Positions 1-16,198 of a stretch of 61,650 bases of DNA are shown in pieces. The notes beneath the pieces were generated by a model, which did not search any database, was not told the origin of the DNA, and was given only the letters and a program-made list of their open reading frames with translations. Numbering within the stretch: the first letter of the stretch is position 1; each line of letters begins with the position of its first letter. Origin of the DNA: a virus; the IMG/VR virus record IMGVR_UViG_3300032753_000026, positions 1 through 61,650 of that record; one strand, 5' to 3'. The translations under genes and the position numbers were made by a program.

Positions 1-1257
1 AGCCACAACCTGCATATAAGGGCTACGATCCCACCCAGGAGGCATATCGAAGTACTCGTGAACAAGCTCCTCAAGTATAACAGGCGCAAAAGGTCTAAAC
101 TTTTGTCTACGTTTGATTTCATTTACTTGATCCTTAATGTCTGGACCTCTAGGGTCCGCTAATAAACTACGGTTACCAAGGGCTCTAGGTCCAAACTCTG
201 CCCGCCCGCTGGCTACCCCAACAATTTTGTTAGTAACCAACTCGGAAATGATATCTTTAACAGGATAACGGCCAGCAATATTAGTGCCCAAGAAAGCATT
301 ATCCCAAACCAATCTTCTGCCCACTGCCATTGCAGCCGCGCCAAGGCTACTGCCAGCATCACCAGGATTAGGCATAATCCAAATGTTATCAAAATACTCT
401 CCTAGAATTCTATTTGCACTACAGTTAAGTGCTACTCCGCCGCAGTATACTAAATTTTCACTATAACCAATATCACTGGCTTTAATCATTATATTACCAA
501 TTAAGTCTTCTGTCAACTCTTGTACCTGCGCGGCCATGTCCATAGGGTCATTGGGATAGACTATGTCATCAGTTAATCCTAGGTGTAGATTCTGTTTGAA
601 CACGATGTTTTTTTCATCGTGTAATAGAGATGCTCTTAGTCGCAAACTACGAAGATCTACCACCTGACCCCATCCAGCCATGCCCATTAAGATATATTCT
701 TCATCTAGTGGTTTGAGTCCAGCTTGCTTGGTAAAGGCACTGTACATCAGACCAATGCTGTGCGGATACTTTTGCCCCCACAATTTTTTATACACGGCCT
801 TGCCACGGTCATCATAGTAACTATGCCAGATACTAATAGTGTCCCACTCGCCTATTGCATCAATGACAACCACCGTGGCATCTGTAAATGAGCTTGTTTG
901 AAAACCTGCGGCCGCATGTGTTAAGTGATGGTTGTAACTCTTAATAGGTAATTTATCTAGACTTAACTTAGGTAATTGTTGTTTTAATATACCTGAGACA
1001 GTCCATGGTGTTTTTAATTCACTCCACTGGCCAGCATACAATTGACGAGCCTTTTTAACCCACGGACGCTCATAGTATGCTATACGGTCTATGGATCCAT
1101 ACTTAAGCGCATCTTTGATTAATGGTTCATTTAAGTTACTGTCGTGTTTACGTTTGCTGTATCGTTCAGCATGTCCAGCAAACAGTATCTTCCCATCATC
1201 ATTGATGAGAGTTACTGCCGCATCATGAAACCCCGCAGAAATTCCTAAGATATTCAT
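1..1257 (-). CDS. Carbamoyltransferase, NodU/CmcH/TobZ family (partial)
   Basis: Begins at an ATG (1257-1255) and runs off the left edge, so 419 codons are present and the C-terminus is missing. The N-terminus (ILGISAGFHDAAVTLI, then GHAERYSKRKHD) is the ASKHA-type kinase-like fold of O-carbamoyltransferases. A conserved His segment (NHHLTHAAAGF) follows, and further on GRAEFGPRALGNRSLLADPR and RPFAPVI mark the start of the C-terminal YrdC-like half. The family transfers a carbamoyl group from carbamoyl phosphate, through carbamoyl-AMP, to a hydroxyl on a sugar or antibiotic. The start overlaps the upstream SGNH-like gene by 35 bases, so it is the promoter-distal gene of the cassette seen here. 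With glycosyltransferases in the same unit, a carbamoylated glycan is a reasonable inference, but the acceptor is unknown. Confidence 0.9.
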   Translation of the reverse strand, partial: MNILGISAGFHDAAVTLINDDGKILFAGHAERYSKRKHDSNLNEPLIKDALKYGSIDRIAYYERPWVKKARQLYAGQWSELKTPWTVSGILKQQLPKLSLDKLPIKSYNHHLTHAAAGFQTSSFTDATVVVIDAIGEWDTISIWHSYYDDRGKAVYKKLWGQKYPHSIGLMYSAFTKQAGLKPLDEEYILMGMAGWGQVVDLRSLRLRASLLHDEKNIVFKQNLHLGLTDDIVYPNDPMDMAAQVQELTEDLIGNIMIKASDIGYSENLVYCGGVALNCSANRILGEYFDNIWIMPNPGDAGSSLGAAAMAVGRRLVWDNAFLGTNIAGRYPVKDIISELVTNKIVGVASGRAEFGPRALGNRSLLADPRGPDIKDQVNEIKRRQKFRPFAPVILEELVHEYFDMPPGWDRSPYMQVVA

Positions 1258-1984
1258 ATATTATTTTTTCAGCCTCAACGTGTGCAGGTTCCAATGGATG
1301 TGTAGTAGCAAAAGGAAATTTGTTCTGTTCTGCCCATTCATAAAACCCTAGGTTTGTAGGAAACCACATCCAATTACGATAATTTAATTGCTGTAATAAA
1401 GTAGTCAGTGTTGCATCATTTTTAAAATGACTGGTGTTATTCAAACTATGATCTACCATGGTAAACAGATAAGGTATTTTTTTCAATTCTAAATATTGTT
1501 GCATCATAACTATCTCGCATAATGATGCGTATAATTCCCAATATTCAAATGTACCTACATAGTGATAAAATACTTTGGCAAACTGAAATATTCCTTTTTC
1601 TTTATCTTTGGCTATTTTAGACACATGCCAGTCAAAGACCACAGGATTATCGTTGTGAAAGTATTCTTTAATAGACTTTGAATCGTCTATTATAGACCAT
1701 GAAGTTAACTGTTCCCACTCGTCTGCAATTCTAAATTCGTATCTTCCAGGAAATGTCCAAGTAATTAACACTAAGCCAATATCATCTTTCATTGCTTCGC
1801 AGGCATTCATAGTTTCTCTGCGTATAGCACTATTTGATCTACCTGGCATTGCCGCGCAATGATAGTCCATGCTTAGACGTTTGGCCAGCAGTGCTGGATA
1901 TGTATGTTGGCTAGGACAAAACTTGCAGTCAGCAAGTTCATTGCCGTAGGTAAAACTATCACCGCCAGCAATTAACGTAGCCAC
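1223..1984 (-). CDS. SGNH-hydrolase-like protein (253 aa)
   Basis: The N-terminal GGDSFTYGNEL is a GDS block with the nucleophile serine, and a GRSNSAIRRE segment supplies a Gly/Asn block. Near the C-terminus THPLEPAHVEAEKI has histidines where the catalytic His of block V is expected, although a clear Asp partner is not obvious. SGNH enzymes remove or transfer acyl groups (often acetyl) on sugars and lipids. No signal peptide or membrane segment is visible, so it would act in the host cytoplasm. It overlaps the neighbouring genes at both ends (13 bases upstream, 35 downstream), which implies translational coupling. It is one of four related but divergent SGNH-like proteins in the window. The substrate is unknown; a role in tailoring a glycan made by the cassette is inferred from context. 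Confidence 0.72.
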   Translation of the reverse strand: MATLIAGGDSFTYGNELADCKFCPSQHTYPALLAKRLSMDYHCAAMPGRSNSAIRRETMNACEAMKDDIGLVLITWTFPGRYEFRIADEWEQLTSWSIIDDSKSIKEYFHNDNPVVFDWHVSKIAKDKEKGIFQFAKVFYHYVGTFEYWELYASLCEIVMMQQYLELKKIPYLFTMVDHSLNNTSHFKNDATLTTLLQQLNYRNWMWFPTNLGFYEWAEQNKFPFATTHPLEPAHVEAEKIIYEYLRNFCGVS

Positions 1985-2616
1985 GACAGTTGTTCCATAT
2001 AATTGTAAATTTTGTCTGCTACCCTAGCATGTCCTTGTTCTAAAAAATGCTTACGAGGACCTTGAGGTGTACTGTCAGTCCATTCCATCATTGACTGATC
2101 AGGCCACCCTAGAAAATATTTTAATTCAATTTGACCTATTAGATCTTTATGCACAAGACTTTTTCTTTCTGTACTCTGATGATTTCCAAATGCGTCTAAC
2201 ATCAGATATTTTTTATTATGTGTTTTTAAATAGTTTTGTAATAATATATTGTTAATCAAATACTGTCTATATAGGTATTGGTCATTGTGATTCCAATTGA
2301 TATGATCTATTAGCCATTTTCTCCAAGGTGCTAGATGCTCATGTGGCAGTGGGCTACACCCTGGCCATAGGTCATATGTACCCGCACTGTCTGACCATTC
2401 TATCCTAGCAAAATGGCTCCATGCTATGACTACCATATCATAGTTATTAATTTGTTCTATACAGGTTCTAACCATACGAGTATTGCCAGTCCCTGGTTTT
2501 GCTAAGTTAGTTACTTCATAGCCTATTTTTTCTGCCAATAGATAAGGCCAAGCAGAATTTAAATCTGCTAGTTCTTCCCCGTAGGTAAAACTATCTCCAA
2601 CTGTTAATAATCGCAT
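1972..2616 (-). CDS. SGNH-hydrolase-like protein (214 aa)
   Basis: Opens with LLTVGDSFTYGEELADL, the same GDSFTYG block as its downstream neighbour. A Gly/Asn block follows (KPGTGNTRMVRT), and EQGHARVADKIYNYM near the C-terminus holds the expected catalytic His. It is shorter than the neighbour and only moderately similar outside these blocks, so the two look like old paralogues rather than a recent duplication. The ATG overlaps the TAA of the 33-aa gene by one base (TAATG), a typical coupled start. No export signal is visible. An esterase or acyltransferase acting on a sugar is the family expectation; the substrate is not known. Confidence 0.72.
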   Translation of the reverse strand: MRLLTVGDSFTYGEELADLNSAWPYLLAEKIGYEVTNLAKPGTGNTRMVRTCIEQINNYDMVVIAWSHFARIEWSDSAGTYDLWPGCSPLPHEHLAPWRKWLIDHINWNHNDQYLYRQYLINNILLQNYLKTHNKKYLMLDAFGNHQSTERKSLVHKDLIGQIELKYFLGWPDQSMMEWTDSTPQGPRKHFLEQGHARVADKIYNYMEQLSWLR

Positions 2617-2717
2617 TATTTGTAAATAAAAGGATCTCTTTTACGAAGTTCTTTTAACTTCTTACGATAGTGTAATTCTAATTTGATACGATTATAAAGA
2701 TTTCGTAACCACTTCAT
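2616..2717 (-). CDS. Small basic protein, 33 aa, function unknown
   Basis: A 33-codon ORF from ATG (2717-2715) to TAA (2618-2616), with an excellent Shine-Dalgarno (AAGGAG) 7 nt before the start. The protein begins MKWLRNLYNRIKLEL and ends KELRKRDPFIYK. It is very basic, has no cysteine, and is predicted helical and amphipathic. Its start lies inside the end of the upstream SGNH-like gene and its stop overlaps the ATG of the downstream one, so it is packed into the operon like a real gene. I do not recognise a function. A membrane- or nucleic-acid-associated peptide would fit the charge. It has no core or leader pattern that would mark it as a peptide substrate for the radical SAM enzymes nearby. 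Confidence 0.75.
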   Translation of the reverse strand: MKWLRNLYNRIKLELHYRKKLKELRKRDPFIYK

Positions 2718-3255
2718 TGAATTTCTCCTTAAGTAATTCATGCGCAGCTAAATGTGCGGCTTCTAGAGGGTGCCCGTCTGAACCCATACTGTACTTATTT
2801 TCTATTGCCCATTGGTAAAATCCTCTTGGTCTACAGGTGTCATGAGGATCTGTTCCTGCCGGAAACATATACCAATGGTCCCACGCTATCTGCGGATTAT
2901 CAGAGACTACACAGTTATCTACACAGGTAAACAAATAAGGAATATTATTCAATGTTAAATAATTTTGCAGTTCTAGTATTTCACTGTCACTGTCTAATTT
3001 GTTGTCTCTACTAGGCCAACTCCAACATACTATCACTAGGTGTTTGAGGTTAAATTCAACCAGTGGCATACAAGTATCTATCACTCTACGACATATTTCT
3101 TTATTGCCCAACCCAGGATATGCTGAGCACACATAGTTATTACCTGACAGCAGCGCCGTGAATGTTTTACGGCTGTAACCATCAGGCCCGCCATGTGGGC
3201 TGTCTGCAAGCTCACTGCCCCATATATGACTATCACCCCCTGCTACTGTAATCAT
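2692..3255 (-). CDS. SGNH-hydrolase-like protein (187 aa)
   Basis: Begins MITVAGGDSHIWGSELAD, a GDS block, followed by a Gly/Asn block (YPGLGNKEICRR). Its C-terminal MGSDGHPLEAAHLAAHELL contains an Asp-x-His pair where the catalytic dyad of the family is expected, so this copy looks the most complete of the cassette's three. The same region resembles the 253-aa paralogue (HPLEPAH versus HPLEAAH), which points to a closer relationship between these two. It overlaps the preceding 388-aa gene by 23 bases. No signal peptide is present. A small acyl esterase or acyltransferase is the family-level expectation. Confidence 0.72.
   Translation of the reverse strand: MITVAGGDSHIWGSELADSPHGGPDGYSRKTFTALLSGNNYVCSAYPGLGNKEICRRVIDTCMPLVEFNLKHLVIVCWSWPSRDNKLDSDSEILELQNYLTLNNIPYLFTCVDNCVVSDNPQIAWDHWYMFPAGTDPHDTCRPRGFYQWAIENKYSMGSDGHPLEAAHLAAHELLKEKFNEVVTKSL
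2725..2730 (-). promoter_or_regulatory. Strong Shine-Dalgarno deciding the 33-aa gene start
   Basis: The minus strand reads AAGGAG here, followed by AAATTCA and the ATG. This near-perfect site inside the coding sequence of the preceding SGNH-like gene is the main reason to accept the short ORF as a gene. Confidence 0.75.
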
Positions 3256-4399
3256 ATCCTGGTTTCATCATTGCTATTTGTTGTTGTTTATAGTCTGAAT
3301 CTGTCCAACAATAGTCAAAAGTATTAGCAATTCCATTGACTTCTATACGGTATATGTCTAGGTAGTTTGACATCTTAGTCCAGATCTCTTCAATGTTGTC
3401 AGTACCAAAACTGGCCATTAGATCTACACGACCAATTGGCAAATATCCTAAACTTAGTTTAGTGTCTGCAGGATCCAAATTGTTATCCACTAGCCATTGA
3501 GTAAATTCTGCTTGCTCTTTATCATGCCAAGGATACTTGCCGCCCTTGGTAACATCACGACTCCACTCTACATCAAATTCACCACTGTAATATTGTAGCT
3601 GTGTGATAGCGTCACAGACTGTACGATCCAAATTTGGGGCATGCTCATCACGCCATACTTCAAATAGAGTTTTGCCTATTTGTGTCCAATGCATATAGAC
3701 TCTGCCAAATTCTCTATCATACCCATTAGATAAAAATCCTTGACGATGTTGGTCTAATAGTGGATAGCGTTTGACTAACGGAAAAGTAGTTATCTGACTA
3801 GGGCGTATCCAGTCTGGGGCCATGGCTTTTTTACGTTGGCTTAGTATTAGGTTTTCTAACTCATGACATATGGTATTCAATTCGCGTATTGCATACTTTG
3901 TTTCATAGTCAGCATATTTGTAGTAGGGGCTTAAGTTATCCACAGTGCCCTGTAACAATTCAAAATGATTATGCAGTTGATTTAATATACCATGTTTTGG
4001 ACTCAATCCAATATTAGCATCATCTTTGATGTATAGATCAGGTAGATTATATTCAGCTGGAAACCTTACAGTATTTGGATGAAACCATTCTTCAATGATA
4101 TAAGGGCGCAGACCGTGATCTTGCCACACTTTAGTTTGATTAAATCTATTAATGGTTTCAATTGATGTGTTTAATTCACTGCAAAGAAACTCTAATGTAC
4201 GTTTGCTGTCAGGCCAACCTAGAAAACAAAAGTTTTTTTCTAAAAGTAGTTTTGAATTGAGTATTTCTTGTAGTGCTGATATCCAATCTTGTGCAAGTTT
4301 GTGATCATCAGCAATGATATAATAGTCAAGAAAATCCGTTTTGTCTAACGGATTGCGTAGAGTTACTTTAACCGATTGATTGGTACCATTCAAATACAT
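3233..4399 (-). CDS. Unknown 388-aa protein between radical SAM and SGNH genes
   Basis: I do not recognise this family. The start is supported by a GGAAAG Shine-Dalgarno 8 nt upstream and a 32-base overlap with the preceding radical SAM gene. The protein is soluble and aromatic-rich, with no membrane segment, signal peptide or radical SAM cysteine triad. A middle segment (NQLHNHFELLQG) has two spaced histidines, and the C-terminal half carries SRDVTKGGKYPWHDKEQAEF followed by LGYLPIGRVDLMASFG, both of which look like conserved functional loops. A helical region around residues 165-185 could be a short coiled coil. Its fixed place in the overlapping operon argues for a role in the same pathway, perhaps as an acceptor-binding or partner protein. 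Confidence 0.7.
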   Translation of the reverse strand: MYLNGTNQSVKVTLRNPLDKTDFLDYYIIADDHKLAQDWISALQEILNSKLLLEKNFCFLGWPDSKRTLEFLCSELNTSIETINRFNQTKVWQDHGLRPYIIEEWFHPNTVRFPAEYNLPDLYIKDDANIGLSPKHGILNQLHNHFELLQGTVDNLSPYYKYADYETKYAIRELNTICHELENLILSQRKKAMAPDWIRPSQITTFPLVKRYPLLDQHRQGFLSNGYDREFGRVYMHWTQIGKTLFEVWRDEHAPNLDRTVCDAITQLQYYSGEFDVEWSRDVTKGGKYPWHDKEQAEFTQWLVDNNLDPADTKLSLGYLPIGRVDLMASFGTDNIEEIWTKMSNYLDIYRIEVNGIANTFDYCWTDSDYKQQQIAMMKPGYDYSSRG

Positions 4400-5702
4400 C
4401 GCGTCTTTCCAATAAAATATCAGCCAAAATTAAGTCATCTTGGCGAATCGTTTCTAATTGTAACACACGATGCTTGCCTTTGTCAAGAGCAATCTGCCAT
4501 TCATTGGGCCACTGTTCTTGGAAGGTTGGGCGAGTTTTAAGCTGTATTAACATGTCCCTAAGTTGGCTATTTGCTAGTCCAATGCTATCGGGTCCGCCAT
4601 CCAAAAGTTCATCTATCCAAGGGTGTAATATTGACTTGGGTAGGGCCAAGGGTGACATGATAATATTAGGGCTAAAACTAAAGACAACTTTGGCTAAGAT
4701 GTCTACACCCAATTCTGTTGCTAACTGCTCAATATTACGAAGTTCAAACATACCCGGCAGGGTAAGTGTGAAGTCTAACCTCATCTGACGGCGGTGCGTA
4801 GCGATTCCAAGGCCTTCCTTAAAGTTATCAACCCACGCTTGATAGTCGAGACCTGTGCGTATATATTCTCCAATTCTGCCTGTACCATCAAGGCTTGCAC
4901 ATATTTGCCAGTCACGTAGCCTGCTGAGAATATCAGTATAGAGATTGACGCCGCGATAATTGACGCGACTAAGATTTGTGTTGTATCTAGCATAAACATT
5001 TTTACCATCTCCCAGTTCAACAATGCGCTGCATATAGCGCCAATGTTGTTCGTACATCAAGGGCTCACCGCCAACCCAATATACTTCCTCGATTTGATGA
5101 TTCTCTACCGCAGATGAAAATTCTTCTTCAATCTGCCCGTCCTGGAATGCTTCAATTTGACGTTTGATAGTAGGCTGCATCCAATTATTCTTTGGATCAC
5201 CCCAATTGATCATGTTATGTTGTCTTTGTTCACTCTCCCACGCACTAGACAACATATCACCGCACATACGACACTTAAAGTTGCAGAGATTACTAAAACG
5301 ATAATCCCAACTTACAGGCCGCATAGTTGTCGTTCCCTCTGCGTCTGTAGTGTCCCATATACTATTGTACTTATGAGCAAACAGTTGATCAAAATAACTA
5401 CGGTAAACGCTTGTGTTCAATAATTTATCATTGCAGACTTCACATTCAGGTAAGGTTTCACCTGCCATCATACGCACACGCACATCTTTCATATGTTCGC
5501 TGTTCCAGTGTTCCTCTAGAGTAATAGGAATATACTTGCCTGTACCACTAGCAGTGTCAATATACTGTTTAAAGTTTTGTGCAGGCTCGCGACTAGCACA
5601 ACACATTCGTCGCTCAGTCTGCGGACTTAGGTATGTGTGTACCCAAGGTGCTAGGCAAAGTGTCTTAGGTTTGTCCATATCCCATGGCCTTGGCAATTTC
5701 AT
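4368..5702 (-). CDS. Radical SAM protein with N-terminal auxiliary-cluster domain (444 aa)
   Basis: The radical SAM CxxxCxxC motif is CNFKCRMC (Cys140, 144, 147), which would bind the [4Fe-4S] cluster that cleaves S-adenosylmethionine. Before it lies a cysteine domain: CLAPW (Cys16), CC (Cys34-35) and CEVC (Cys87, 90). This is the twitch/SPASM-like pattern that normally follows the radical SAM core but here precedes it. WVGGEPLMYEQHW is the GGE-like SAM-binding motif of the barrel. It overlaps both neighbours (38 and 32 bases). It is the last of six tandem enzymes and clusters by motif with the next two upstream genes. Substrate unknown: peptide, sugar or nucleotide are all possible. Confidence 0.88.
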   Translation of the reverse strand: MKLPRPWDMDKPKTLCLAPWVHTYLSPQTERRMCCASREPAQNFKQYIDTASGTGKYIPITLEEHWNSEHMKDVRVRMMAGETLPECEVCNDKLLNTSVYRSYFDQLFAHKYNSIWDTTDAEGTTTMRPVSWDYRFSNLCNFKCRMCGDMLSSAWESEQRQHNMINWGDPKNNWMQPTIKRQIEAFQDGQIEEEFSSAVENHQIEEVYWVGGEPLMYEQHWRYMQRIVELGDGKNVYARYNTNLSRVNYRGVNLYTDILSRLRDWQICASLDGTGRIGEYIRTGLDYQAWVDNFKEGLGIATHRRQMRLDFTLTLPGMFELRNIEQLATELGVDILAKVVFSFSPNIIMSPLALPKSILHPWIDELLDGGPDSIGLANSQLRDMLIQLKTRPTFQEQWPNEWQIALDKGKHRVLQLETIRQDDLILADILLERRDVFEWYQSIG

Positions 5703-8152: not shown

Positions 8153-9525
8153 AGAGTATCATACCATTCAGCTAATTGTGGAAAGGTATGTCTGAAGTCT
8201 TTGCCACGTCGTTGATCATACTGTTCATAGAAGTTCTTAAAGTCACGTTGTAATACTTCACGTGATAATGCACCACTGTGTGGACTATCTACTGTCTGTA
8301 GGTATTCAACCAATCTATCAAGTTGATTGAATTCATATTCGTGTAGATATTCACGGGCAGCATTTCCAAATCGTCCTAGTTCATGGGCAAACTCTACACG
8401 CATCTCTAAAGGCAATATCAATGGACTTTGGAAACTAGGGAATCGTAAAATGTTTAGGCTAAAGTTGATACTATCTTTGCCGTATTTCTTTTTAAGATTT
8501 ACAATGCTCCATAAAAATTCAGTTAGACTTGGTAAGCATAGGGCATTGATGGTACACATAACATGTAGGCCGCGCAATTTACCACTATCCAATAGATAAC
8601 TAACATTGCTAGCCCACTGATTCCAATCCAAGCCATCACGTATATAAATTGCGTGACGACCAATACTTTCATTGCTGGTGTACAAATCAAGTTCAATACC
8701 TTGTGTGGCATCTAATAGTCTCTCCAACTTATCTTGTTCAAATCCTAGGTTACTGTTAATAGCAAGTCTGGTAGAGCTTTTTCCTCTATTTGCTTGGAAC
8801 CACTCAATTAGTCTCCAAGTATATCCACTCATCAAGGGCTCTCCGCCTGTGATGCGTAGTTCTTTTAGGGTTTTGTGGAGGTCTGATTCCCACCAACGGA
8901 AGAACGCTTCCACGTAGGGATTAACTTGATCAATAGTATACAGTTGACTACTATCGTGAGTGTGAGTAAAGTGATTGCGTCCGTCAGATACGAGATGTTC
9001 ATAGGCTCCATTGCGTTTAATATCTCGTACCCAGGTAGTACTAAAAGCAGGGTTACAATAGCTACAAGCAAACTGGCATGTTCTATCGAAAGCGATTTCC
9101 AATGTTTGTAGGTCAACATCGCGATCAGGGCTAGTATTAAAAGCTTCATCTAAGTCTTTATCCTCATATATTACAGTTTTATAAACACGATCACTAATTG
9201 GCTCGGGCACATCTACCCCAGCATACTTAGGATCCTTGTACATGTCTTCAATTTTCCAGCAGTACTCACAACCCTTAGGGCGAAGTCCATCTTGCATCAA
9301 TGCACGATCATTTTTCTTTTCACGAGTGTTGTGCAGAGCTTTGGGATTAACCAATACCTGTTCAACACTGACCTGATGTGGCAATGGGTGGTGACAACTA
9401 GTAGTTTGTCCTGAACCTAACCATATAGTAGCATTGTACCATTTGGCCGCACAGAAGCTCTCTGACTTAATGTCAATTACTCTACGCTTGTATTGTAAGT
9501 CTGTTTCTTTAGCTAGCTTCGGCAT
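8149..9525 (-). CDS. Radical SAM protein, CxHP subgroup (458 aa)
   Basis: CQFACSYC (Cys150, 154, 157) is the radical SAM triad and RITGGEPLMSGYTW the SAM-binding motif. The N-terminal cysteine domain differs from the three genes downstream: CAAKW (Cys25) and CHHP (Cys44) replace CxxPW and CC, and CEYCW (Cys86, 89) follows. A His-rich segment (HHPLPHQV) sits in this domain. It shares the order AKW, CxHP, HNT, RPKxCxYCW with the next gene upstream, so the two are a paralogous pair, perhaps acting on related substrates or as a heterodimer. It overlaps its neighbours by 17 and 4 bases. The sequence after CxxxCxxC (NPAFSTTW) is also shared within the pair. Confidence 0.87.
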   Translation of the reverse strand: MPKLAKETDLQYKRRVIDIKSESFCAAKWYNATIWLGSGQTTSCHHPLPHQVSVEQVLVNPKALHNTREKKNDRALMQDGLRPKGCEYCWKIEDMYKDPKYAGVDVPEPISDRVYKTVIYEDKDLDEAFNTSPDRDVDLQTLEIAFDRTCQFACSYCNPAFSTTWVRDIKRNGAYEHLVSDGRNHFTHTHDSSQLYTIDQVNPYVEAFFRWWESDLHKTLKELRITGGEPLMSGYTWRLIEWFQANRGKSSTRLAINSNLGFEQDKLERLLDATQGIELDLYTSNESIGRHAIYIRDGLDWNQWASNVSYLLDSGKLRGLHVMCTINALCLPSLTEFLWSIVNLKKKYGKDSINFSLNILRFPSFQSPLILPLEMRVEFAHELGRFGNAAREYLHEYEFNQLDRLVEYLQTVDSPHSGALSREVLQRDFKNFYEQYDQRRGKDFRHTFPQLAEWYDTL

Positions 9526-10927
9526 GGTATTTGCACTCCTGCCAAAATTCTTTCATTTGTGGAAACACATCTAAGAATGTTTCATCACGTGCATCTTTTG
9601 TTGTAGCACCACGACGTTTATCATATTCATTAAAGAAGCGATAAAAATCAGCACGCTGTTCATGTAGATACTTGTCAGTGAGTTTCTTACCTTTCTTCAT
9701 CCAATCTAGGTCACGTTCTAGGCGTTGGATTTCATAGTCTTTGAATCCATCAAAACGAAGTTCACCTTCCTTAAGTTGATGTTGCTTCATATACTTGACT
9801 ACATCAGCTAATATCACAGTATAGCTTTCTGGAAGAATTTGTAGACTCTGCCAACTAGGTGTACGTAGTACAGGAGTATCAAACCAAACACGTTGATAAG
9901 TTGAACTATATGTCTTACGCAAAAACAAGATCTCTTCTAACAAACGTTTTAGTCCTAAAATGCTCAGATTGTTCATGGTAATAATAAACGTTAGGCTATT
10001 GCGTCCTGGAATTTCTTCTAAGAAACGAGTAGTATAGTCAACTACCCTACTAGGATTTAAGCCACGACGAATATAACTAGCATGTTCTGGAATACCAGTG
10101 TCAAGGCTTACATACTGCATGAAGTGTTCAATCTTTGTGCCTTCACATAACTGTTTGACTTTGTCTATATACTTGTTAAACAGTTCTGGTTCTACGCTAA
10201 AGTTACTAGTAACATCTACGTGTAAGTCACTCTTAGGTGCCGCTAGGATATAGTCAAACACACGATGCGTGTTCTTGTCCATTAGAGGTTCACCACCAGT
10301 CATTCTAAAATGTTTTAGTTTAGGGTATAGTTCAGGCCACCAAGCCCAAAACGCATCTACATAAGGATTATCATCTTTAACTGGAATAGGTTTGCGTCGA
10401 CCTTGGAAGTGTTCTGGAGCATTATGTGGCTTGCTGGTAGGATATGCACCCCAGCGGTCAATATCCTTTTGCCATTCTGTGCTGAACTGTGGACTGCAAT
10501 AGCTACATGCTAGATTACAGCCGTGACTAAAGTTTACTTCTACATAACTAGGAGTAACATCAGCGTCCCATGGTAGATCTTTAATAGTGTCGTAGTGTTC
10601 TGCCGCCCAGGGTTCACCACTACGATAGTGACGATCACTTAAGTGTCCAGCATCCTCCATAGTCCAGCAGTAGTTACACTCTTTAGGGCGAGTACCCTCT
10701 AGCATTTTCTTACGTTGTTCTTTCTTATATGCTGTGTTATGTAAGGCGCTAGGATGAAACACTAAAGGGGCCGCATCAATCTCATGTAAGGGAGGATGGT
10801 AACAGCTATTGTTTAATCCTGTAGGTAAATGTAGGCTTACCTGTTGCCATTTAGCCAAGCAAAGACTAGGACCTAGTTTGTCCTTCATCTCTTCTGCACT
10901 TGACATGAATACGCTTTTATTAGCCAT
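9509..10927 (-). CDS. Radical SAM protein, CxHP subgroup (472 aa)
   Basis: CNLACSYC (Cys137, 141, 144) is the radical SAM triad, and FRMTGGEPLMDKNTH is the SAM-binding motif. The N-terminal auxiliary domain has CLAKW (Cys23), CYHP (Cys42) and CNYCW (Cys84, 87). Motif order and spacing match the following gene closely, which marks the pair as paralogues. A central insertion after CxxxCxxC (SPQFSTEWQKDIDRWGAYP) is also shared. It is the longest of the six tandem enzymes, with a charged C-terminal tail. The start overlaps the upstream gene by eight bases. Substrate unknown. Confidence 0.87.
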   Translation of the reverse strand: MANKSVFMSSAEEMKDKLGPSLCLAKWQQVSLHLPTGLNNSCYHPPLHEIDAAPLVFHPSALHNTAYKKEQRKKMLEGTRPKECNYCWTMEDAGHLSDRHYRSGEPWAAEHYDTIKDLPWDADVTPSYVEVNFSHGCNLACSYCSPQFSTEWQKDIDRWGAYPTSKPHNAPEHFQGRRKPIPVKDDNPYVDAFWAWWPELYPKLKHFRMTGGEPLMDKNTHRVFDYILAAPKSDLHVDVTSNFSVEPELFNKYIDKVKQLCEGTKIEHFMQYVSLDTGIPEHASYIRRGLNPSRVVDYTTRFLEEIPGRNSLTFIITMNNLSILGLKRLLEEILFLRKTYSSTYQRVWFDTPVLRTPSWQSLQILPESYTVILADVVKYMKQHQLKEGELRFDGFKDYEIQRLERDLDWMKKGKKLTDKYLHEQRADFYRFFNEYDKRRGATTKDARDETFLDVFPQMKEFWQECKYHAEAS

Positions 10928-12041
10928 TGTTATTTACTACCTGTTTATAAGCAACCTGTGAAAATGGAAGATAATCAAAAAGATTTTCTTTACGGATCTT
11001 ATCCAATAGCAATATGCTTGCTATAGTATTTAAAAACAAAGATTGTCCTTGATTTTTCTGTATTTTATTCTTAGCATACATTAATTGAGATATACTTTCT
11101 TGTGACAATGGCATCGTTAATGCTTGATCAACTTGTTGATTAGCCAATTCAATTAACTCTGGCGGTAGACAATCTACCGAATAGTAATCTGGAAATTCTA
11201 ATACAGATAACCACATGTCAATTCCTATATTGTTAAAATATTTTACATATTCATCTAAGAACCAAATATTTAAATTACTAACAACATTATCAGTTGTAAG
11301 TTTTAAATTGTCCATTTTATCTCGATGTTCTACCAGATCTTGAATATTTTTTTCTATCAAAGCCCAATTGGATCCTGATCGAAGACTATTAAGTTTTTCG
11401 CCAACAGCATCTATACTAATATGATAATCAACTATACCAAAATGTTTCCAATAATCAAATATAGATTTATCTTTATATTTTAACGTAGATACATTACTAT
11501 TGTATCTCAATGAGACATTTTGACTTTTTTCTTGTTTGATATATTCGTCTAATACTTCCCAATGGCAGGGATTTAATAAAGGTTCTCCCCCTGTAAAATA
11601 AATTTCTGTTACAGAATCATTTACTATTATGTCTAGATAGTCTGTTAAATCAGTAAAACTATCAATTTCAATCCCAAATTCTTTTTCCCATAGACTACTT
11701 GAGTGTGGCCCGCAGGTACGACAAGATAGATTACATACCTTAGAATTTCTTATATCAATATATTGATATCCAGTCCATGGCTGTTTACGATGATTCAGAC
11801 CTTGTCTATAACTTTTAACGTTGTTTGCTTCTTGTTTTGTGCATATACGGCATTCAGCAGGAGCACAATTTGTTTGTTTAATACGTTCTTTAAGATCAGC
11901 AAAAGGATTTCCTGTTTTTAAATCAGTAATATTTTTCCTGTAAGAATGATCAATTACACAACAGGGAGCAATTTTATTATTAGGAAAAAATGTAATGCCG
12001 TTGGTAATAGCTGCACAGGTCCATTGTTCTTTGCTTGTCAT
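10920..12041 (-). CDS. Radical SAM protein with N-terminal auxiliary-cluster domain (373 aa)
   Basis: CNLSCRTC (Cys103, 107, 110) is the radical SAM triad and FTGGEPLLNPCHW the SAM-binding motif. The N-terminal domain has Cys9, CC (Cys27-28), Cys59 and C-x2-C (Cys64, 67), the CC-type arrangement, so it groups with the genes at 4368-8152 rather than with the adjacent CxHP pair. It is the shortest of the six and the most AT-rich, with many Asn, Ile and Lys codons, which may mean a separate origin. It is first of the radical SAM run in transcription order, and its start overlaps the stop of the glycosyltransferase gene upstream by four bases. Confidence 0.87.
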   Translation of the reverse strand: MTSKEQWTCAAITNGITFFPNNKIAPCCVIDHSYRKNITDLKTGNPFADLKERIKQTNCAPAECRICTKQEANNVKSYRQGLNHRKQPWTGYQYIDIRNSKVCNLSCRTCGPHSSSLWEKEFGIEIDSFTDLTDYLDIIVNDSVTEIYFTGGEPLLNPCHWEVLDEYIKQEKSQNVSLRYNSNVSTLKYKDKSIFDYWKHFGIVDYHISIDAVGEKLNSLRSGSNWALIEKNIQDLVEHRDKMDNLKLTTDNVVSNLNIWFLDEYVKYFNNIGIDMWLSVLEFPDYYSVDCLPPELIELANQQVDQALTMPLSQESISQLMYAKNKIQKNQGQSLFLNTIASILLLDKIRKENLFDYLPFSQVAYKQVVNNNG

Positions 12042-12937
12042 TCTCTAACCATTGGTCCTTGATTTTTAAAGTTACTCTTATAATGATGTTTAAAAAATTT
12101 GCTTTCTTCTGGATCCATATCCACAATAGGTAAACCTAAACGTTGCCGTAGTGTATCACCTATTACCTTGCAGTGATCTATAGCAATATCCTCATGGTTG
12201 TATTCATTCCATAGGTCTTCAAGTGTATCAAAGTCTTGTACCCAACGATATTCCCAATCGCATAGCATTGTTAAGTATGTGCCCAAGCGTGCGCCATATA
12301 TTGCCCAGAAGCCATTTTCTACATCTGCGCCTACTGTTTGCCAAATGCACAAATGGTCATAGTTACGTGAGTGTACACGTTGCTCAAACTCAGATAAATT
12401 AGGCTTTGCACCGCGATCTAAACACATCTTAACGCCTTCACGGAAGCCTGCACGCCATGCCTGGAAAGCTGTTTGATTAGGATATGTTGTTGAATAACAA
12501 TCTGCCATAGCCCAGTAGTTGGGATAGAAACAAAACTCTACATCATTCTTAGCGTCGCCGTCTGATGCTTCATGTGTTCGCATGTTATACACAAACTCTT
12601 TGGTCCAGCAACTTAGTCCTCCGTTTCCGTACTGTAGCCCATTAATATGGTTGCGAGCACGCCAACGAAATACTTTATCGCTATTAGCATCAGTAAGAGC
12701 AAGCTGAAGGTTAAAAAATCCTGGATCGGGTATATTATCACCGTCAACAACCACAAAACGATCAGTGTCGCTGATGTCAGCACATGCCTTGTGTGCGGCG
12801 TCACTGCCCTTAACTCCGTCAACCCTTTTTGCCCATGGTACCATGTTTTGAATCTTAATCCAATTTTGTTCTTTATTAGGTTCATCATATGTTAGGTATA
12901 TTACATCCAAGTCTGCTATGTCAATTAGTTGTGTCAT
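12038..12937 (-). CDS. GT-A-like glycosyltransferase (299 aa)
   Basis: The N-terminal region (DLDVIYLTYDEPNKEQNW) is a Rossmann-like first strand, and RFVVVDGDNIPDPGFF contains DGD, a DxD-type metal and nucleotide-sugar site of GT-A enzymes, at the end of a hydrophobic strand. GNGGLSCWTKEFV resembles the acceptor loop of such enzymes. No transmembrane helix is seen, so it is probably soluble or peripheral. Family expectation is transfer of a sugar from a nucleotide-sugar donor. It precedes the six radical SAM genes and its stop overlaps the first of them, which ties glycosyl transfer to the radical chemistry. Donor and acceptor are unknown. Confidence 0.7.
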   Translation of the reverse strand: MTQLIDIADLDVIYLTYDEPNKEQNWIKIQNMVPWAKRVDGVKGSDAAHKACADISDTDRFVVVDGDNIPDPGFFNLQLALTDANSDKVFRWRARNHINGLQYGNGGLSCWTKEFVYNMRTHEASDGDAKNDVEFCFYPNYWAMADCYSTTYPNQTAFQAWRAGFREGVKMCLDRGAKPNLSEFEQRVHSRNYDHLCIWQTVGADVENGFWAIYGARLGTYLTMLCDWEYRWVQDFDTLEDLWNEYNHEDIAIDHCKVIGDTLRQRLGLPIVDMDPEESKFFKHHYKSNFKNQGPMVRE

Positions 12938-13283
12938 AATATTCTATAGTTGAGTATTCTTCATTTTTTTCTAAAATCAATCCTGCATGATTTTTAACCA
13001 CGGCATATCCGTGATCGCTTTTCTTTAATTTTACACTAATTCCTAGGTCAAGAGCAATCTTTTCTAGACGATTTCTTTCTAAATTTACATAATACCTACT
13101 GGCATTATCGTATACATCCTTTTCTACAACCAAGTATTTGGTATTTTCTGGGTGTTGTTGCATAGTACACATAGTAATCTTACCCGTGTCATCATAATGA
13201 ACCCTATATTCAATGGGTTCAGGTACTATAACTCCAAAACTAGCCAGGGCCTGATTAAACTCTTCTTCCCAACTCATCTTCAT
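12921..13283 (-). CDS. Unknown 120-aa protein
   Basis: No recognised family. The protein starts MKMSWEEEFNQAL (translation could also begin at the second Met) and alternates short beta-strand-like and charged segments. A basic and acidic mix follows (LERNRLEKIALDLGISVKLK), then a short C-terminal tail. There is no signal peptide or cysteine motif. It overlaps the glycosyltransferase genes on both sides (17 and 29 bases), which indicates it belongs to the pathway. A small accessory or acceptor-binding role is only a guess. Confidence 0.65.
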   Translation of the reverse strand: MKMSWEEEFNQALASFGVIVPEPIEYRVHYDDTGKITMCTMQQHPENTKYLVVEKDVYDNASRYYVNLERNRLEKIALDLGISVKLKKSDHGYAVVKNHAGLILEKNEEYSTIEYYDTTN

Positions 13284-14121
13284 ATTCCTTAACTATATCA
13301 TCTGTGATCCATGACTTTTCATAATAGTGTAGTGGGTGATATTGATTTATATTATTAATACGCACCATTGGCAAATCCAATTCATAGACCAGTGCTTCGT
13401 GCCAGGGTATAGATCTACTCAATCCGTTAATGTCTGGTTTCATATGTACAAAATTAATAAAATCTATTGCAGGTAACAGACATTTTTCAACTCCTAGAGT
13501 TTTGGCTGCTATAGAGTAAACCACATCAGTGGTAGGTATTTTGTCTCGACAATTTTTTAATACATTATCTCTGATGTAATTCCAATTGGTAAAAATTTGT
13601 TCTGCGTATCTAAAAAAATCTGCAGAATCTTGACTATATCTAAAATACATTAGTCCGCTGTAGACATCTGGCAAGTCATTATCATCAAACAAACGTCTAT
13701 AACTACGCACTACGCTAGGTTGTTCTAGGTAATCTTTACATCCCTGACTAAGCGCAATGTTCTTTAATCTGAACGTAGTCCACCAGTGCGCTATGCTGCG
13801 AGTAAAAATCAAATCACTTTCTAATTTAATTGTTTCTTTAAACGGTGTTAGATAAAATACCTGCCACTCATTTGACAATTTCCACTCAGAATCTTTTGCC
13901 AGATCCTGTTCTAGTAGAATAACATAGTCAAAAACTCTGCGGTGTTGTTCTGTAATCTGTTCCATGGTTGCTGAGTCAACTATAACAGCATATTGACTGC
14001 CGGGCATGGTTAGCTTTATGCTCATGGCCTGCACATAGGCCAGACGTAGGTAATCAACGGTAGTATTTTGTGCTATTGACACAAACCCTTGTTGTGCCTG
14101 ATGAGGTGTTATTCTGTGCAT
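13255..14121 (-). CDS. GT-A-like nucleotide-sugar transferase (288 aa)
   Basis: The fold outline is that of a GT-A/GT8-like enzyme: DYLRLAYVQAMSIKLTMPG, then a strand (YAVIVDS), and YLTPFKETIKLESDLIF, where ESD occupies the DxD position. The same YxLSPYDETILIDGD pattern is seen in the next gene upstream, so the two are paralogues, with a degenerate metal site here. DVYSGLMYFRYSQDSADFF matches the usual substrate loop. No membrane segment is apparent. It overlaps both neighbours (29 and 13 bases). Sugar transfer to a phage or host glycan is the family-level inference. Confidence 0.62.
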   Translation of the reverse strand: MHRITPHQAQQGFVSIAQNTTVDYLRLAYVQAMSIKLTMPGSQYAVIVDSATMEQITEQHRRVFDYVILLEQDLAKDSEWKLSNEWQVFYLTPFKETIKLESDLIFTRSIAHWWTTFRLKNIALSQGCKDYLEQPSVVRSYRRLFDDNDLPDVYSGLMYFRYSQDSADFFRYAEQIFTNWNYIRDNVLKNCRDKIPTTDVVYSIAAKTLGVEKCLLPAIDFINFVHMKPDINGLSRSIPWHEALVYELDLPMVRINNINQYHPLHYYEKSWITDDIVKEYEDELGRRV

Positions 14122-14918
14122 ATTGTTTTTACAAAATTATCAAAATCATCTGACAACAAATATTCTTTATCCATAACGTGAATATTCTGTTGTGGTACCA
14201 GTACAGCTTTATTAGTTTCTTTAATTGTTATTAAACCCTTGTCAATTGACATTGATTTTATTGGATCATTGTAGGTAAACATTGACCACGGAATTAGAGT
14301 ATTGGGATTTTGATTATACCCGTTTAATAGATTATTGGCTATGGTAAATGCAAAGTCATTTCTAAAAGCCCCATGTTTAACATGATATAGATTCCAGTAG
14401 TATAGATAATTTCTTTGTACACGCCCTACTAGATTAAAAAACATCTGTGCTGTTGGTGTCTTTTTAAATACCGCGGCAGTGGCCCATTGATAGACTAATC
14501 CGTATGCGCCCATCTTATCAGGCCAAGCACCAAGTTGTGTTTGATTTTGTGCTGTGATTTTATAATCAAAATCTTGCTCAAATAATTTCAATAGATTGCA
14601 ATCTAAAACCAAATAATCGCCGTCAATTAAAATAGTTTCATCATACGGGCTTAGATCATATGCACGATATCTATTGCCGTTTTTCCATGCTGTGCCTTCT
14701 TTAGTTCTAATATTTGGCATGGTATTGCTGATGCAAATAACATTGTCAAATATATCACTGGCAATCTCAGAGTCAGTTATCAGTGTTACAGGTAGATTAA
14801 GTGTGTGAGCAATTAATTGACTAGAACGTTTGGCTATTTTTACATAGTCAACTGTGTCTGTATTAAAAGCAAATAATACAACACCTCTAGACTTTGCGGG
14901 CACGTTTGATTTCTGCAT
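14109..14918 (-). CDS. GT-A-like nucleotide-sugar transferase (269 aa)
   Basis: Contains the first-strand segment VVLFAFNTDTVDYVKIAKR, the NLPVTLITDSE strand, and YDLSPYDETILIDGDYLVLD with an intact DGD metal and donor site. WATAAVFKKTPTAQMFF follows as the likely acceptor-facing loop. It resembles the downstream 288-aa protein along its first half. It overlaps the 104-aa gene at its start by 32 bases. It is a soluble enzyme with no signal peptide. Donor and acceptor cannot be read from sequence. Confidence 0.65.
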   Translation of the reverse strand: MQKSNVPAKSRGVVLFAFNTDTVDYVKIAKRSSQLIAHTLNLPVTLITDSEIASDIFDNVICISNTMPNIRTKEGTAWKNGNRYRAYDLSPYDETILIDGDYLVLDCNLLKLFEQDFDYKITAQNQTQLGAWPDKMGAYGLVYQWATAAVFKKTPTAQMFFNLVGRVQRNYLYYWNLYHVKHGAFRNDFAFTIANNLLNGYNQNPNTLIPWSMFTYNDPIKSMSIDKGLITIKETNKAVLVPQQNIHVMDKEYLLSDDFDNFVKTICTE

Positions 14919-15201
14919 GCTGGATATGCCACATATTCATTACCATTTGATAATGTTGTTTACATAACCCTAAGAATTCTAATCTATTAACTAGGATTGG
15001 ATTTTGGTATGTGTCTTCTAAGAAGAGCTCATCTTCACCCCAGGTGACTACAAAAGAATACAGCTCAGGAGTTGCTTTAAACAACCCACCATTATAGGCA
15101 AAATGTAAATCAGTTTGAATTTTTTCGCGTAGAATACGCTTGTTGGTTTGGTAATCTGTTGCTAAACGGATTTGGTCTACAATTTTTTCTAAGTCGCTCA
15201 T
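14887..15201 (-). CDS. Conserved small T4-like phage protein (104 aa), function unknown
   Basis: Begins MSDLEKIVDQIRLATDYQTN, with a strongly helical N-terminus, then YNGGLFKATPELYSFV and WGEDELFLEDTYQNP. This pattern is one I associate with small conserved proteins of T4-like aquatic phages, but I cannot assign a function. The gene lies between fibre genes and the glycosyltransferase cassette and is the first gene of the cassette transcript. There is no Shine-Dalgarno before the ATG; instead a late-promoter-like GATAATTA sits 5 nt upstream, so it may be read from a leaderless mRNA. Confidence 0.75.
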   Translation of the reverse strand: MSDLEKIVDQIRLATDYQTNKRILREKIQTDLHFAYNGGLFKATPELYSFVVTWGEDELFLEDTYQNPILVNRLEFLGLCKQHYQMVMNMWHIQHAEIKRARKV

Positions 15202-15238: not shown

Positions 15239-16198
15239 TTATGAGATTGTTACAGTACCCCAGGTATTAGTTAGGTATGTGGTTTCTGGATAAACAACAT
15301 TGATTTGAGCATTGTGGGTAAATCCAACAGTATTATTAAAATGTGAGTTACCGCCTACTGTAGAGCAATAGGTATAGAATGTAACTGTAATTGTTGATCC
15401 ATTATCGCTATGTGAACCTTGAAGTCCATTAGTGTTAACAGCAATATAAACATAGTCACCATCATAAACATAGGTAGAATTAGCTGATGTAATTTTTGCC
15501 ACTACCTGAGCTGAGGTGCTCATATTCCAATAACCTAAGCCAGTGTTATTAGTACTAACTGTACCGCCACTACCAGAATAGCTAGTAGTAGTTCCCTTAA
15601 TAGTGATACCTGTTAAGTTAGTTCCCCATAGGGTTACAAAGTCAGCTGAATGGCTTGTACCATTTGATCCTGTTGGTGTATTTACAACAACGTTGATTTG
15701 CCCGCCTGCGTTAAAGAAATAGCGTGCTTGGTCAGCACTGGCAAAAGTTACAGTTCTTGTGATTGTACTTGTTTGTGCGGCACTAGAAGTATCTGTAAAT
15801 GATATTGCAGTACCATAGTTACTGCCAGTAGTTGTAGTACCTTGCGCATAAGCAGTTGCACGTGTTGTATTAACTTGTGTAACTGCGGCAGCTACGTTTG
15901 AAAAATACGTGATAGTTTGGCCAGCTGTCATATTGATGTTAGCACCGCCTAGGCCCCCACCAATTTGTGTTTGTCCTTGGTGTGCTAATGCGGCGTTAGT
16001 AGTATAGACTAATCCTGCCCATTGTACGGCTGTAACTGTACCGCCTGTTGAAACTGATGCAATTAAACTAGTGCTTTGGCCGTATCCCCAGGTACTGCTA
16101 CCAACTCCCCATACATAAGCAACATTGCCGCCAGCAGTTGTTTGTGCTAGTCCATTGTAGTCCGTTGCTTGAATTAATCCACCAGAAGCGTATGCCAT
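15239..16198 (-). CDS. Virion structural protein, fibre-like (319 aa)
   Basis: Rich in Thr, Ser, Gly, Asn and Ala with almost no charged residues, the composition of phage fibre or tip proteins. It starts MAYASGGLIQATDYNGLAQT and contains beta-rich segments (RYFFNAGGQINVVVNTPTG, SAQVVAKITSANSTYVYDGDYV) typical of trimeric beta structures. An AGGA Shine-Dalgarno precedes the ATG. It is co-directional with the fibre genes upstream and last in that group. A role at the distal fibre or as adhesin is likely, but the exact position in the virion is unknown. Confidence 0.72.
   Translation of the reverse strand: MAYASGGLIQATDYNGLAQTTAGGNVAYVWGVGSSTWGYGQSTSLIASVSTGGTVTAVQWAGLVYTTNAALAHQGQTQIGGGLGGANINMTAGQTITYFSNVAAAVTQVNTTRATAYAQGTTTTGSNYGTAISFTDTSSAAQTSTITRTVTFASADQARYFFNAGGQINVVVNTPTGSNGTSHSADFVTLWGTNLTGITIKGTTTSYSGSGGTVSTNNTGLGYWNMSTSAQVVAKITSANSTYVYDGDYVYIAVNTNGLQGSHSDNGSTITVTFYTYCSTVGGNSHFNNTVGFTHNAQINVVYPETTYLTNTWGTVTIS

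Follow-up and report, generated by a model that had tools for sequence, protein, structure and literature searches.

Why should a phage carry six consecutive radical SAM (rSAM) genes between glycosyltransferase genes and a carbamoyltransferase gene, and do all of these genes serve one pathway? The cassette that raises this question fills positions 1–15201 of the minus strand of IMG/VR record IMGVR_UViG_3300032753_000026, whose 61,650 nucleotides are called the window here. A preliminary description counted 14 genes plus a 33-residue ORF, overlapping almost continuously on one strand. Strand and continuity are as described, but the nearly gapless run holds 16 ORFs besides the 33-residue one (Table 1), and one of them, comp, was overlooked as a conserved member although relatives occur in 43 of the 50 viral loci in which we found R3 (R3 loci). 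With a probability of roughly 0.4, we read the cassette as a two-module pathway for a fibre-linked glycan, in which an inserted block of radical enzymes tailors a sugar and a carbamoyl group forms the cap.

Table 1 Genes of the cassette and the adjoining fibre genes, in window positions
Feature	Position	Strand	Evidence
Carbamoyltransferase, NodU/Nol-type, 3′ end cut by record end	1..1257	-	PF02543, PF16861, phrog_1601
sgnh1, SGNH/DUF6071-like	1223..1984	-	DUF6071 E 0.007 (below cut-off), GGDSFTYG motif by eye
sgnh2, DUF6071/SGNH hydrolase-like	1972..2616	-	PF19547 41.8 bits (cut-off 27)
33-aa micropeptide, C-terminus KRDPFIYK, carbamoyltransferase partner gene	2616..2717	-	39/50 R3 loci
sgnh3, SGNH-like by motif alone	2692..3255	-	GGDSHIWG by eye
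comp, conserved phage protein, invariant CHExE	3233..4399	-	43/50 R3 loci
R1, N-twitch radical SAM	4368..5702	-	NF033640 288 bits
R2, N-twitch radical SAM	5665..6849	-	NF033640 340.6 bits
R3, N-twitch radical SAM	6839..8152	-	NF033640 401 bits
R4, N-twitch radical SAM	8149..9525	-	NF033640 270.2 bits
R5, N-twitch radical SAM	9509..10927	-	NF033640 286.7 bits
R6, additional N-twitch radical SAM at an accessory position, R5 and GT1 on either side	10920..12041	-	NF033640 231.1 bits
GT1, probable GT-A-type glycosyltransferase	12038..12937	-	AlphaFold2 model, Foldseek, VIA
h120, small conserved protein	12921..13283	-	35/50 R3 loci
GT2, glycogenin-like GT-A glycosyltransferase	13255..14121	-	Glycogenin profile match E 6e-5
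GT3, GT2 paralogue	14109..14918	-	hhalign 99.2%, E 3e-19 vs GT2
h104, small conserved protein between GT3 and fibre genes	14887..15201	-	44/50 R3 loci
fib319, fibre-like, cassette-upstream, candidate acceptor	15239..16198	-	Relatives in 41/50 R3 loci
fib469, tail-fibre-type protein	16213..17622	-	phrog_19602 tail fiber and others

The six rSAM proteins, R1–R6, belong to one family. All score above the curated NF033640 N-terminal-twitch cut-off of 170 bits (231–401 bits in profile searches), which was exceeded in none of 14 control genomes. Every aligned row of R1 (45), R2 (44), R3 (48) and R5 (47) retains the CxxxCxxC motif and the N-terminal C..C(C)..CxxC cysteines, as do all three rows of R6, among them L009, which duplicates the window; in R4, one of 46 rows lacks three N-terminal cysteines, and that locus (L022) is cut there. 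These counts leave out L056 (R3 only), L007 and L008. An extra R3 cysteine, C98, is present in 32 of 48 rows. The earlier claim of six CxxxCxxC enzymes with auxiliary cysteines ahead of the core is borne out, and R1–R6 are predicted to carry bound clusters together with one N-terminal auxiliary cluster. R2 and R3 are fused in four loci. Best-hit relatives of R6 turned up in only three of the 50 R3 loci (the window copy, L014 and, weakly at 21 bits, L038); R1–R5 are common to the phage clade, and R6 is a local extra.

What these enzymes act on separates our reading from its main rival, in which cross-linking, epimerization or C–H functionalization by the rSAM block changes residues of a peptide or of the fibre protein itself and the glycosyltransferases and carbamoyltransferase act on these residues, giving a RiPP-like decoration of the virion. 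Auxiliary-cluster rSAM enzymes mostly have peptide substrates, and the best solved relative by profile, the peptide maturase SkfB, argues in the same direction and against a sugar; the second, viperin, whose substrate is a nucleotide, favors the glycan. Our literature searches found no described function for the NF033640 subfamily.

The remaining proteins were assigned with graded confidence. GT2 matches a glycogenin profile over the N-terminal 110 positions, with no Pfam match, and GT3 is its homologue, with no PDB profile match of its own. The AlphaFold2 model of GT1 (pLDDT 88) suggests a fold of GT-A/nucleotidyltransferase type: in Foldseek the best match was SunS, a peptide S-glycosyltransferase (E 1.9e-3, none at ≤0.001), and in VIA a glycosyltransferase aligned over 139 residues (Z 9.8, rmsd 3.4), tied with nucleotidyltransferases. 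GT1 is thus probably a GT-A glycosyltransferase, in agreement with the three glycosyltransferases first proposed. Both SunS and glycogenin, which glycosylates a protein tyrosine, lend some weight to peptide or fibre modification. Among the three SGNH-like proteins proposed, sgnh2 stands through its DUF6071 score (its GDSL match, E 2e-4, is below cut-off); sgnh1 and sgnh3 were assigned from GDS-type motifs picked out by eye, sgnh3 matching nothing in Pfam or NCBIfam and having relatives in 15 of the 50 R3 loci.

The comp protein has no Pfam match over cut-off and none in NCBIfam or PHROG, and its CHExE motif is invariant in an alignment of 36 rows. Its AlphaFold2 model (pLDDT 86) matches ten uncharacterized phage structures at E ≤0.001, and one Atu_ph07 protein is similar in structure at E 1e-6; against the PDB, the best Foldseek E value was only 0.38. 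VIA rows are mostly cyclophilins (best row Z 8.2, rmsd 3.5, 143 aligned), and we keep a cyclophilin-type fold as a lead only, as Z scores of 7–8 may reflect a common arrangement. A sequence homologue in Atu_ph07 was dropped: the match at 400 kb has an E value of 0.004, and no gene is annotated there. PqqD is absent from the Pfam matches of the cassette proteins, which may count somewhat against peptide modification. The structure comparisons matched comp to no PqqD-like recognition element. By tblastn, comp, GT1, GT3 and fib319 had no relatives in 50,697 phage records.

Large, uncultured jumbo phages of the T4 superfamily share the cassette as a conserved cluster of genes. All 11 core genes are present in 34 of the 50 R3 loci, and in each of the 50 those that are present keep their order and strand, so the arrangement is not due to chance. 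These loci were selected by R3 similarity and are non-independent: over R3, L009 has the same sequence as the window (100% identity), and L051 and L055 are near-identical. The neighborhood comparison thus places the single rSAM family together with glycosyltransferases and a carbamoyltransferase, as the preliminary description had anticipated, in 34 of 50 loci within a phage clade. The rSAM block nevertheless varies more than these 50 loci would imply, which counts against our reading: R1 precedes R2 in phage-like MAG contigs (L060–L062), in which comp was not found, and three other loci (L103, L119 and L123) have different rSAM sets behind GT1.

Between none and seven additional genes are interspersed in these cassettes. 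Those inside the cassette encode a GDSL-like protein, an rSAM of the B12 type and, in L048 and L054, an epimerase (the epimerase that was tested is that of L050, where it lies downstream); an APS-kinase-like protein and an FkbM methyltransferase are found downstream, as are, on the opposite strand, a DegT aminotransferase and a Gfo/Idh oxidoreductase. This accessory set is typical of sugar tailoring. Against a glycan, the extra families u0, u5 and u10 gave no convincing Pfam family, and no gene for sugar-nucleotide synthesis was recognized in the window cassette. Mixed chemistry of this kind might instead yield a diffusible small molecule, and carbamoyl, GDSL-like and other tailoring enzymes co-occur in natural-product clusters described in the literature. 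We consider such a product very improbable, as neither a scaffold-building enzyme nor a transporter was recognized in the cassette and its core is fixed while accessory genes vary.

In nearly all loci that reach far enough, the cassette comes after the fibre genes and shares their strand, with fib319 relatives upstream of h104. The glycosyltransferases are tied to the fibre by position alone. Fibre genes immediately upstream would suit a modified fibre protein as well as a fibre-linked glycan, and their shared strand would fit late virion genes better than a third possibility, that during infection the pathway alters the polysaccharide of the host surface, for instance to shut out other phages. 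We judge that possibility unlikely, even though 138 phage records, the majority from Synechococcus phages, contain carbamoyltransferase relatives and four examined records have heptose, UDP-glucose dehydrogenase or aminotransferase genes nearby.

Bacterial relatives show that the cassette can be taken apart. In a 99-row tree (a short search, with SH-aLRT support only), each of the types R1–R5 clusters with chromosomal genes of Bdellovibrionota, and all five are represented in one eight-gene array, L066; the rSAM genes are therefore a portable set. A few rows (L028_R3_7186, L015_R5_7534 and those of L051) fall away from their best-hit type, and long branches leave their places unsure. Two further arrays hold relatives of R1–R4 (L371) and of R1, R2 and R4 (L372). 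These arrays differ from the phage cassette in that GT1, comp and the carbamoyltransferase were detected in none of the stretches examined (0 of 10, each of 14–21 kb, around bacterial R1–R5 relatives). Conversely, L208 contains h104, GT3, GT2, GT1, the peptide and the carbamoyltransferase without rSAM genes. The cassette thus consists of separable modules, and with that qualification the initial proposal of a single pathway for a modified sugar remains the best guess, a peptide-linked product being a less probable alternative.

The surroundings of the cellular relatives bear on the substrate from both sides. Bacterial R1 is flanked by GlmU-like and GlmS-like genes in one locus (G177), as a glycan would predict, and in another (G028) its neighbors are two GDSL-like proteins, of which one is above the Pfam cut-off, and a nucleotidyltransferase; a third locus (G001) also has a nucleotidyltransferase nearby, together with an enzyme of the GT2 family. 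The Pfam family met most often in the neighbors is glycosyltransferase family 2 (10 of 123 proteins scanned, from 213 listed, at 18 of 31 loci); G021–G023 are uncounted, since they were chosen for a carbamoyltransferase already noticed next to their rSAM genes. Four other bacterial R1 loci (G251, G159, G104 and G077) have housekeeping surroundings with no glycan gene recognized by eye, and in G143 at most one neighbor, a membrane protein, might be a glycosyltransferase. Alphaproteobacterial relatives adjoin PqqD-like proteins, a sign of peptide handling that counts against a sugar substrate. No leader–core precursor tied to the rSAM genes was found, the general survey covering ORFs of 60 residues and longer, and on balance we regard modification of a peptide or fibre residues as doubtful.

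The only small peptide in the cassette follows the carbamoyltransferase. The latter, as first described, is a carbamoyltransferase: both NodU/Nol Pfam domains are found (PF02543, E 8e-37; PF16861, E 5e-27, the C-terminal one cut), as is a match to phrog_1601 (Nol-like carbamoyltransferase). It is truncated by the record end at base 1, leaving 419 residues, as compared with 487–500 in 32 full relatives; neither the cut protein (104.7 bits) nor a full relative (145.9 bits) reaches the NodU equivalog NF041651 (cut-off 1000). Of 80 loci, 75 have the 33-residue peptide together with the carbamoyltransferase, the peptide lying upstream every time; the peptide occurs in 39 of the 50 R3 loci. Among the 120 stretches listed in a motif scan that required a DPFIY-like end and nothing of the remaining sequence, 103 have the carbamoyltransferase but 33 an rSAM match, which argues against peptide modification by the rSAM block. 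A chance ORF was rejected, as 33 distinct peptides agree in their C-terminal half, and an rSAM precursor was rejected as a likely reading. A tblastn search with the peptide had no match, which carries no weight because the low-complexity filter may have masked it. The preliminary statement that the cassette has no candidate precursor needs revising, since this ORF is conserved as a gene, although its link is to the carbamoyltransferase and not to the rSAM genes.

A bacterial DUF5989/SxtK-type protein in L080 has the corresponding position ahead of a carbamoyltransferase gene and ends in TPFVYTLF, as compared with DPFIYK in the phage peptide. In L080, by contrast, a second small gene intervenes, and the phage peptide is shorter, without a long hydrophobic stretch in the window and unmatched by Pfam (no family, DUF5989 (PF19451) included, for six micropeptides at E up to 10). 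Carbamoyltransferases of cyanophages and pelagiphages are also NodU/Nol-like, some near sugar genes, but the eight examined share 26–34% identity with ours, and none has the peptide within 4 kb; a ninth, from a single-cell marine virus, has 46% identity and a similar peptide. Mycofactocin and PQQ offer a pattern for a ribosomal peptide as carrier or cofactor backbone. By that pattern, the near-invariant YRKKLKELRKRDPFIYK end might be carbamoylated, with radical modification and glycosylation as well in rSAM-bearing phages, and the modified peptide placed in or on the virion, a scheme to which we give little credence.

In the fibre-linked glycan pathway that we favor, one module (h104, GT3, GT2 and GT1, with the micropeptide, SGNH proteins and carbamoyltransferase at the far end) would build and then cap the glycan. 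The GT-A enzymes would transfer sugars, the SGNH proteins could shift acyl groups or take them off, and the carbamoyltransferase would add a carbamoyl group with the peptide as a helper, in the place held by DUF5989 in bacteria. The other module would comprise R5-R4-R3-R2-R1, here with R6, and comp. Its rSAM enzymes, each with one N-terminal auxiliary cluster, may act jointly, and probably sequentially, on a single substrate, for which a sugar within this glycan is the likeliest candidate, by epimerization, dehydrogenation or deoxygenation. The decorated target would most likely be the fibre or another virion protein. The analysis establishes which genes are present, their order and conservation, the family of the rSAM proteins, the co-occurrence of these proteins in bacteria and the link between peptide and carbamoyltransferase, from which a sugar substrate, the reactions, the functions of the SGNH proteins and of the peptide, and the acceptor are inferred.

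We found no description of such a cassette in the open-licence PMC literature, as far as the accessible text goes, and one relevant paper. The T4-like marine phage TARA_ERS488813_N000010, with 12 rSAM genes (PMC5332604), resembles our phage as a T4-like phage rich in such genes, but in the portions of that source available to us they are read as Fe–S related and no cassette with glycosyltransferases and a carbamoyltransferase is described. Vibrio phages K566, K567 and VS2 have distant rSAM relatives (22–25% identity); those of K566, however, are scattered over both strands and form a separate group in the tree, and comp was found in neither K566 nor VS2. Within the NF033640 subfamily, to which R1–R6 clearly belong, the distinguishing features here are the tandem sets, the five types and the company of glycosyltransferases, comp and a carbamoyltransferase.

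More broadly, a genetically separable set of five rSAM types is common to phages and Bdellovibrionota chromosomes, and the function of this subfamily thereby becomes testable. The near-invariant micropeptide points to an unrecognized small partner of phage carbamoyltransferases, parallel to bacterial DUF5989. If the product is placed on the fibre, these phages would encode a radically modified glycan on their receptor-binding apparatus.

The linear virus record, 61,650 bases long, encodes a portal protein with 49% identity to the portals of Agrobacterium phage Atu_ph07 and the Pseudomonas phage PA5oct group, as well as T4-type baseplate and hub proteins, and from these features we infer that the record represents part of a T4-superfamily jumbo phage genome. 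An ORF of 4,336 aa with FG-GAP repeats lies amid its tail genes. The cassette comprises 16 ORFs and one 33-aa ORF in a nearly gapless row, and its carbamoyltransferase gene is truncated by the end of the record. The preliminary description had noted six consecutive radical SAM (rSAM) enzymes with an auxiliary cysteine domain ahead of the core; these six N-terminal-twitch proteins, R1 to R6, all exceed the cut-off of the corresponding model, NF033640, and are its sole matches in the entire 61,650-base record. Relatives conserve the radical SAM cysteines as well as one N-terminal auxiliary set (three R4 auxiliary cysteines are missing in 1 of 46 rows, and L022 is truncated at that region). In four phage loci (L023, L034, L038 and L040), R3 and R2 are fused into a single ORF of 837–848 aa, a sign that these two enzymes work together.

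Cassette, related features and rSAM tree groups
Feature	Location	Strand	Content or tree partners	SH-aLRT
Cassette, transcription order	window 15201..1	-	h104, GT3, GT2, h120, GT1, R6, R5, R4, R3, R2, R1, comp, sgnh3, micropeptide, sgnh2, sgnh1, carbamoyltransferase	
FG-GAP ORF	window 23190-36200			
R1-type gene and flanks, genome G177	L376:7745-12333	one strand	GlmU-like and GlmS-like genes on either side of R1	
Protein with GT1-like part	L143:4946-7762		~940 aa	
Protein with GT1-like part	L166:3012-5843		~940 aa	
R1 group			L066	100
R2 group			L066	100
R3 group			L064, L066, L067 and others	96
R4 group			L066, L064	100
R5 group			L066, L067	99

Scanning IMG/VR with R3 yielded 50 loci, all of which keep the order and strand of whichever core genes are present. 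The 11 core genes (small protein h104, glycosyltransferases GT3, GT2 and GT1, R5, R4, R3, R2, R1, conserved phage protein comp and the carbamoyltransferase) are complete in 34; in 11 of the 16 incomplete loci, the sequence stops short of where the missing genes would be. The stretches of L051 and L055 are without R4, R1, comp and carbamoyltransferase, L052 and L057 are without carbamoyltransferase, and R3 is the sole common gene of L056. One to seven extra ORFs (≥90 aa) occur in 36 of the 40 loci that are complete from GT1 to comp, with 34 between R2 and R1, 25 between GT1 and R5 (the slot occupied by R6 in the window), 22 between R5 and R4, 15 between R4 and R3, and 5 between R3 and R2. Products of extra genes within the cassettes of relatives include a B12-type rSAM, a GDSL-like protein, further rSAMs and an epimerase. 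Downstream, they include an APS-kinase-like protein and an FkbM methyltransferase, together with a DegT aminotransferase and a Gfo/Idh oxidoreductase encoded on the opposite strand. With 64 members in 35 loci, u0 is the most frequent family among these extras; its end resembles a glycosyltransferase by eye, and three members tested gave no Pfam match. By eye, a GIY-YIG-like ORF, perhaps a homing endonuclease, is inserted between genes for SGNH-like proteins in L019, L022 and L033. Beyond these 50 loci, more variation is seen among phage-like contigs that had been assigned to MAGs: R1 precedes R2 and comp was not found in L060 to L062, and different rSAM sets follow fiber, h104, GT3, GT2 and GT1 in L103, L119 and L123.

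The rSAM set is a portable module, because chromosomal genes of Bdellovibrionota join the phage genes in each of the supported R1 to R5 groups of a maximum-likelihood tree (99 rows, short search, SH-aLRT support only). A handful of additional phage copies in this tree do not group with their own type. L066, for example, is an eight-gene rSAM array in a Bacteriovoracaceae MAG, close to obgE-like and other housekeeping genes (named by eye). R1-type genes (≥235 bits) are present in 8 of 290 Bdellovibrionota genomes, and some match at E ≤1e-20 in 57; an R2-like gene adjoins R1 in four of seven fetched bacterial stretches (L371, L372, L373 and L375). GT1, comp and carbamoyltransferase were undetected in those seven stretches and in L064, L066 and L067. 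The distance from a carbamoyltransferase to the rSAM array is 11.6 kb in G001, and in G012 one lies 3.7 kb from an rSAM gene; it is ~46 kb away in G002 and on other contigs in G010, and none was found in G011. Conversely, L208 carries h104, GT3, GT2, GT1, a GT1 relative, the micropeptide and carbamoyltransferase in a single 8.8-kb row with no rSAM match. Among other bacteria, the Elusimicrobia MAG G003 (genome of L072, about 2.9 Mb) has 49 N-twitch rSAM matches, several of these ORFs starting with tetratricopeptide-like repeats by eye, and six Flavobacteriales loci (L083, L087, L088, L090, L095 and L098) have a single-copy twitch rSAM near at least one of hemL-, hemE- and hemB-like genes (by eye).

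GT2 matches glycogenin (E 6e-5), and GT3 is its homolog. For the predicted GT1 structure (pLDDT 88), Foldseek found nothing in the PDB at E ≤0.001; the best matches, from E 1.9e-3, are GT-A enzymes and nucleotidyltransferases. In VIA-align, glycosyltransferases (Z 9.8, rmsd 3.4, 139 aligned) and nucleotidyltransferases (Z 9.3) score about equally. The confident model of comp (pLDDT 86), which has an invariant CHExE motif, has no good match among solved structures and matches ten uncharacterized phage proteins at E ≤0.001.

Weighing the accessory genes, glycan enzymes, family 2 glycosyltransferase neighbors and bacterial R1 contexts against the peptide signs, we place a sugar first as the rSAM substrate, at a probability of roughly 40%. 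Glycosyltransferase family 2 is the commonest family near cellular rSAM relatives (10 of 123 proteins, 18 loci). The GlmU-like and GlmS-like flanks of R1 in G177 are a hint of an amino-sugar substrate; in G028, a nucleotidyltransferase gene and GDSL-like genes accompany R1, and the R1-containing array of G001 lies near a nucleotidyltransferase and a GT2-family enzyme. Enzymes of this kind generally act on peptides, and this habit, the PqqD-like neighbors of rSAM relatives in alphaproteobacteria, and SkfB as first solved relative (viperin being second) speak for modification of a peptide or fiber residue, which we consider unlikely. By eye, neither a sugar nor a peptide sign is present at four or five of the eight R1 loci from bacteria. 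Judged by gene position alone, the fiber is a candidate acceptor; alteration of the host surface by the pathway is rated slightly less likely still than peptide modification.

The gene for the 33-aa micropeptide is tied to that for the carbamoyltransferase. Its relatives occur in 39 of the 50 R3 loci, and 33 distinct micropeptides share YRKKLKELRKRDPFIYK almost unchanged. Among the best 80 of 185 carbamoyltransferase loci, 75 have the micropeptide, and all 76 copies lie upstream of the carbamoyltransferase and share its strand; 26 of these have a four-base overlap with the following ORF. A motif-only search found at least 120 stretches, whose unequal lengths make co-occurrence counts lower bounds: at least 103 of the 120 listed contain a carbamoyltransferase, downstream and on the same strand in 102 of 102 measured cases, and at least 33 of the 120 an rSAM match. 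Where phage records encode a more distant carbamoyltransferase, a similar peptide was present in one of nine regions, the one at 46% identity. In L143 and L166, from other phages, a protein with a GT1-like part follows the peptide–carbamoyltransferase pair.

In the bacterial locus L080, a DUF5989-family protein with the ending TPFVYTLF and then a 109-aa protein precede the carbamoyltransferase; SxtK of saxitoxin clusters is presumably of the DUF5989 kind. In those clusters, sxtI, sxtJ and sxtK are consecutive, and one account proposes a role in carbamoyl transfer for all three (PMC2679770). The micropeptide and the L080 protein are alike in gene place and C-terminal ending; the DUF5989 model did not match the phage micropeptide, and the resemblance is therefore one of place and ending, short of established kinship.

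An ocean T4-like phage carrying 12 rSAM genes has already been reported (PMC5332604); in our searches of the open-licence literature, we found no description of the cassette, the common five-type rSAM set or the carbamoyltransferase peptide. We rate the cassette as a phage glycan cluster that carries a radical SAM block.
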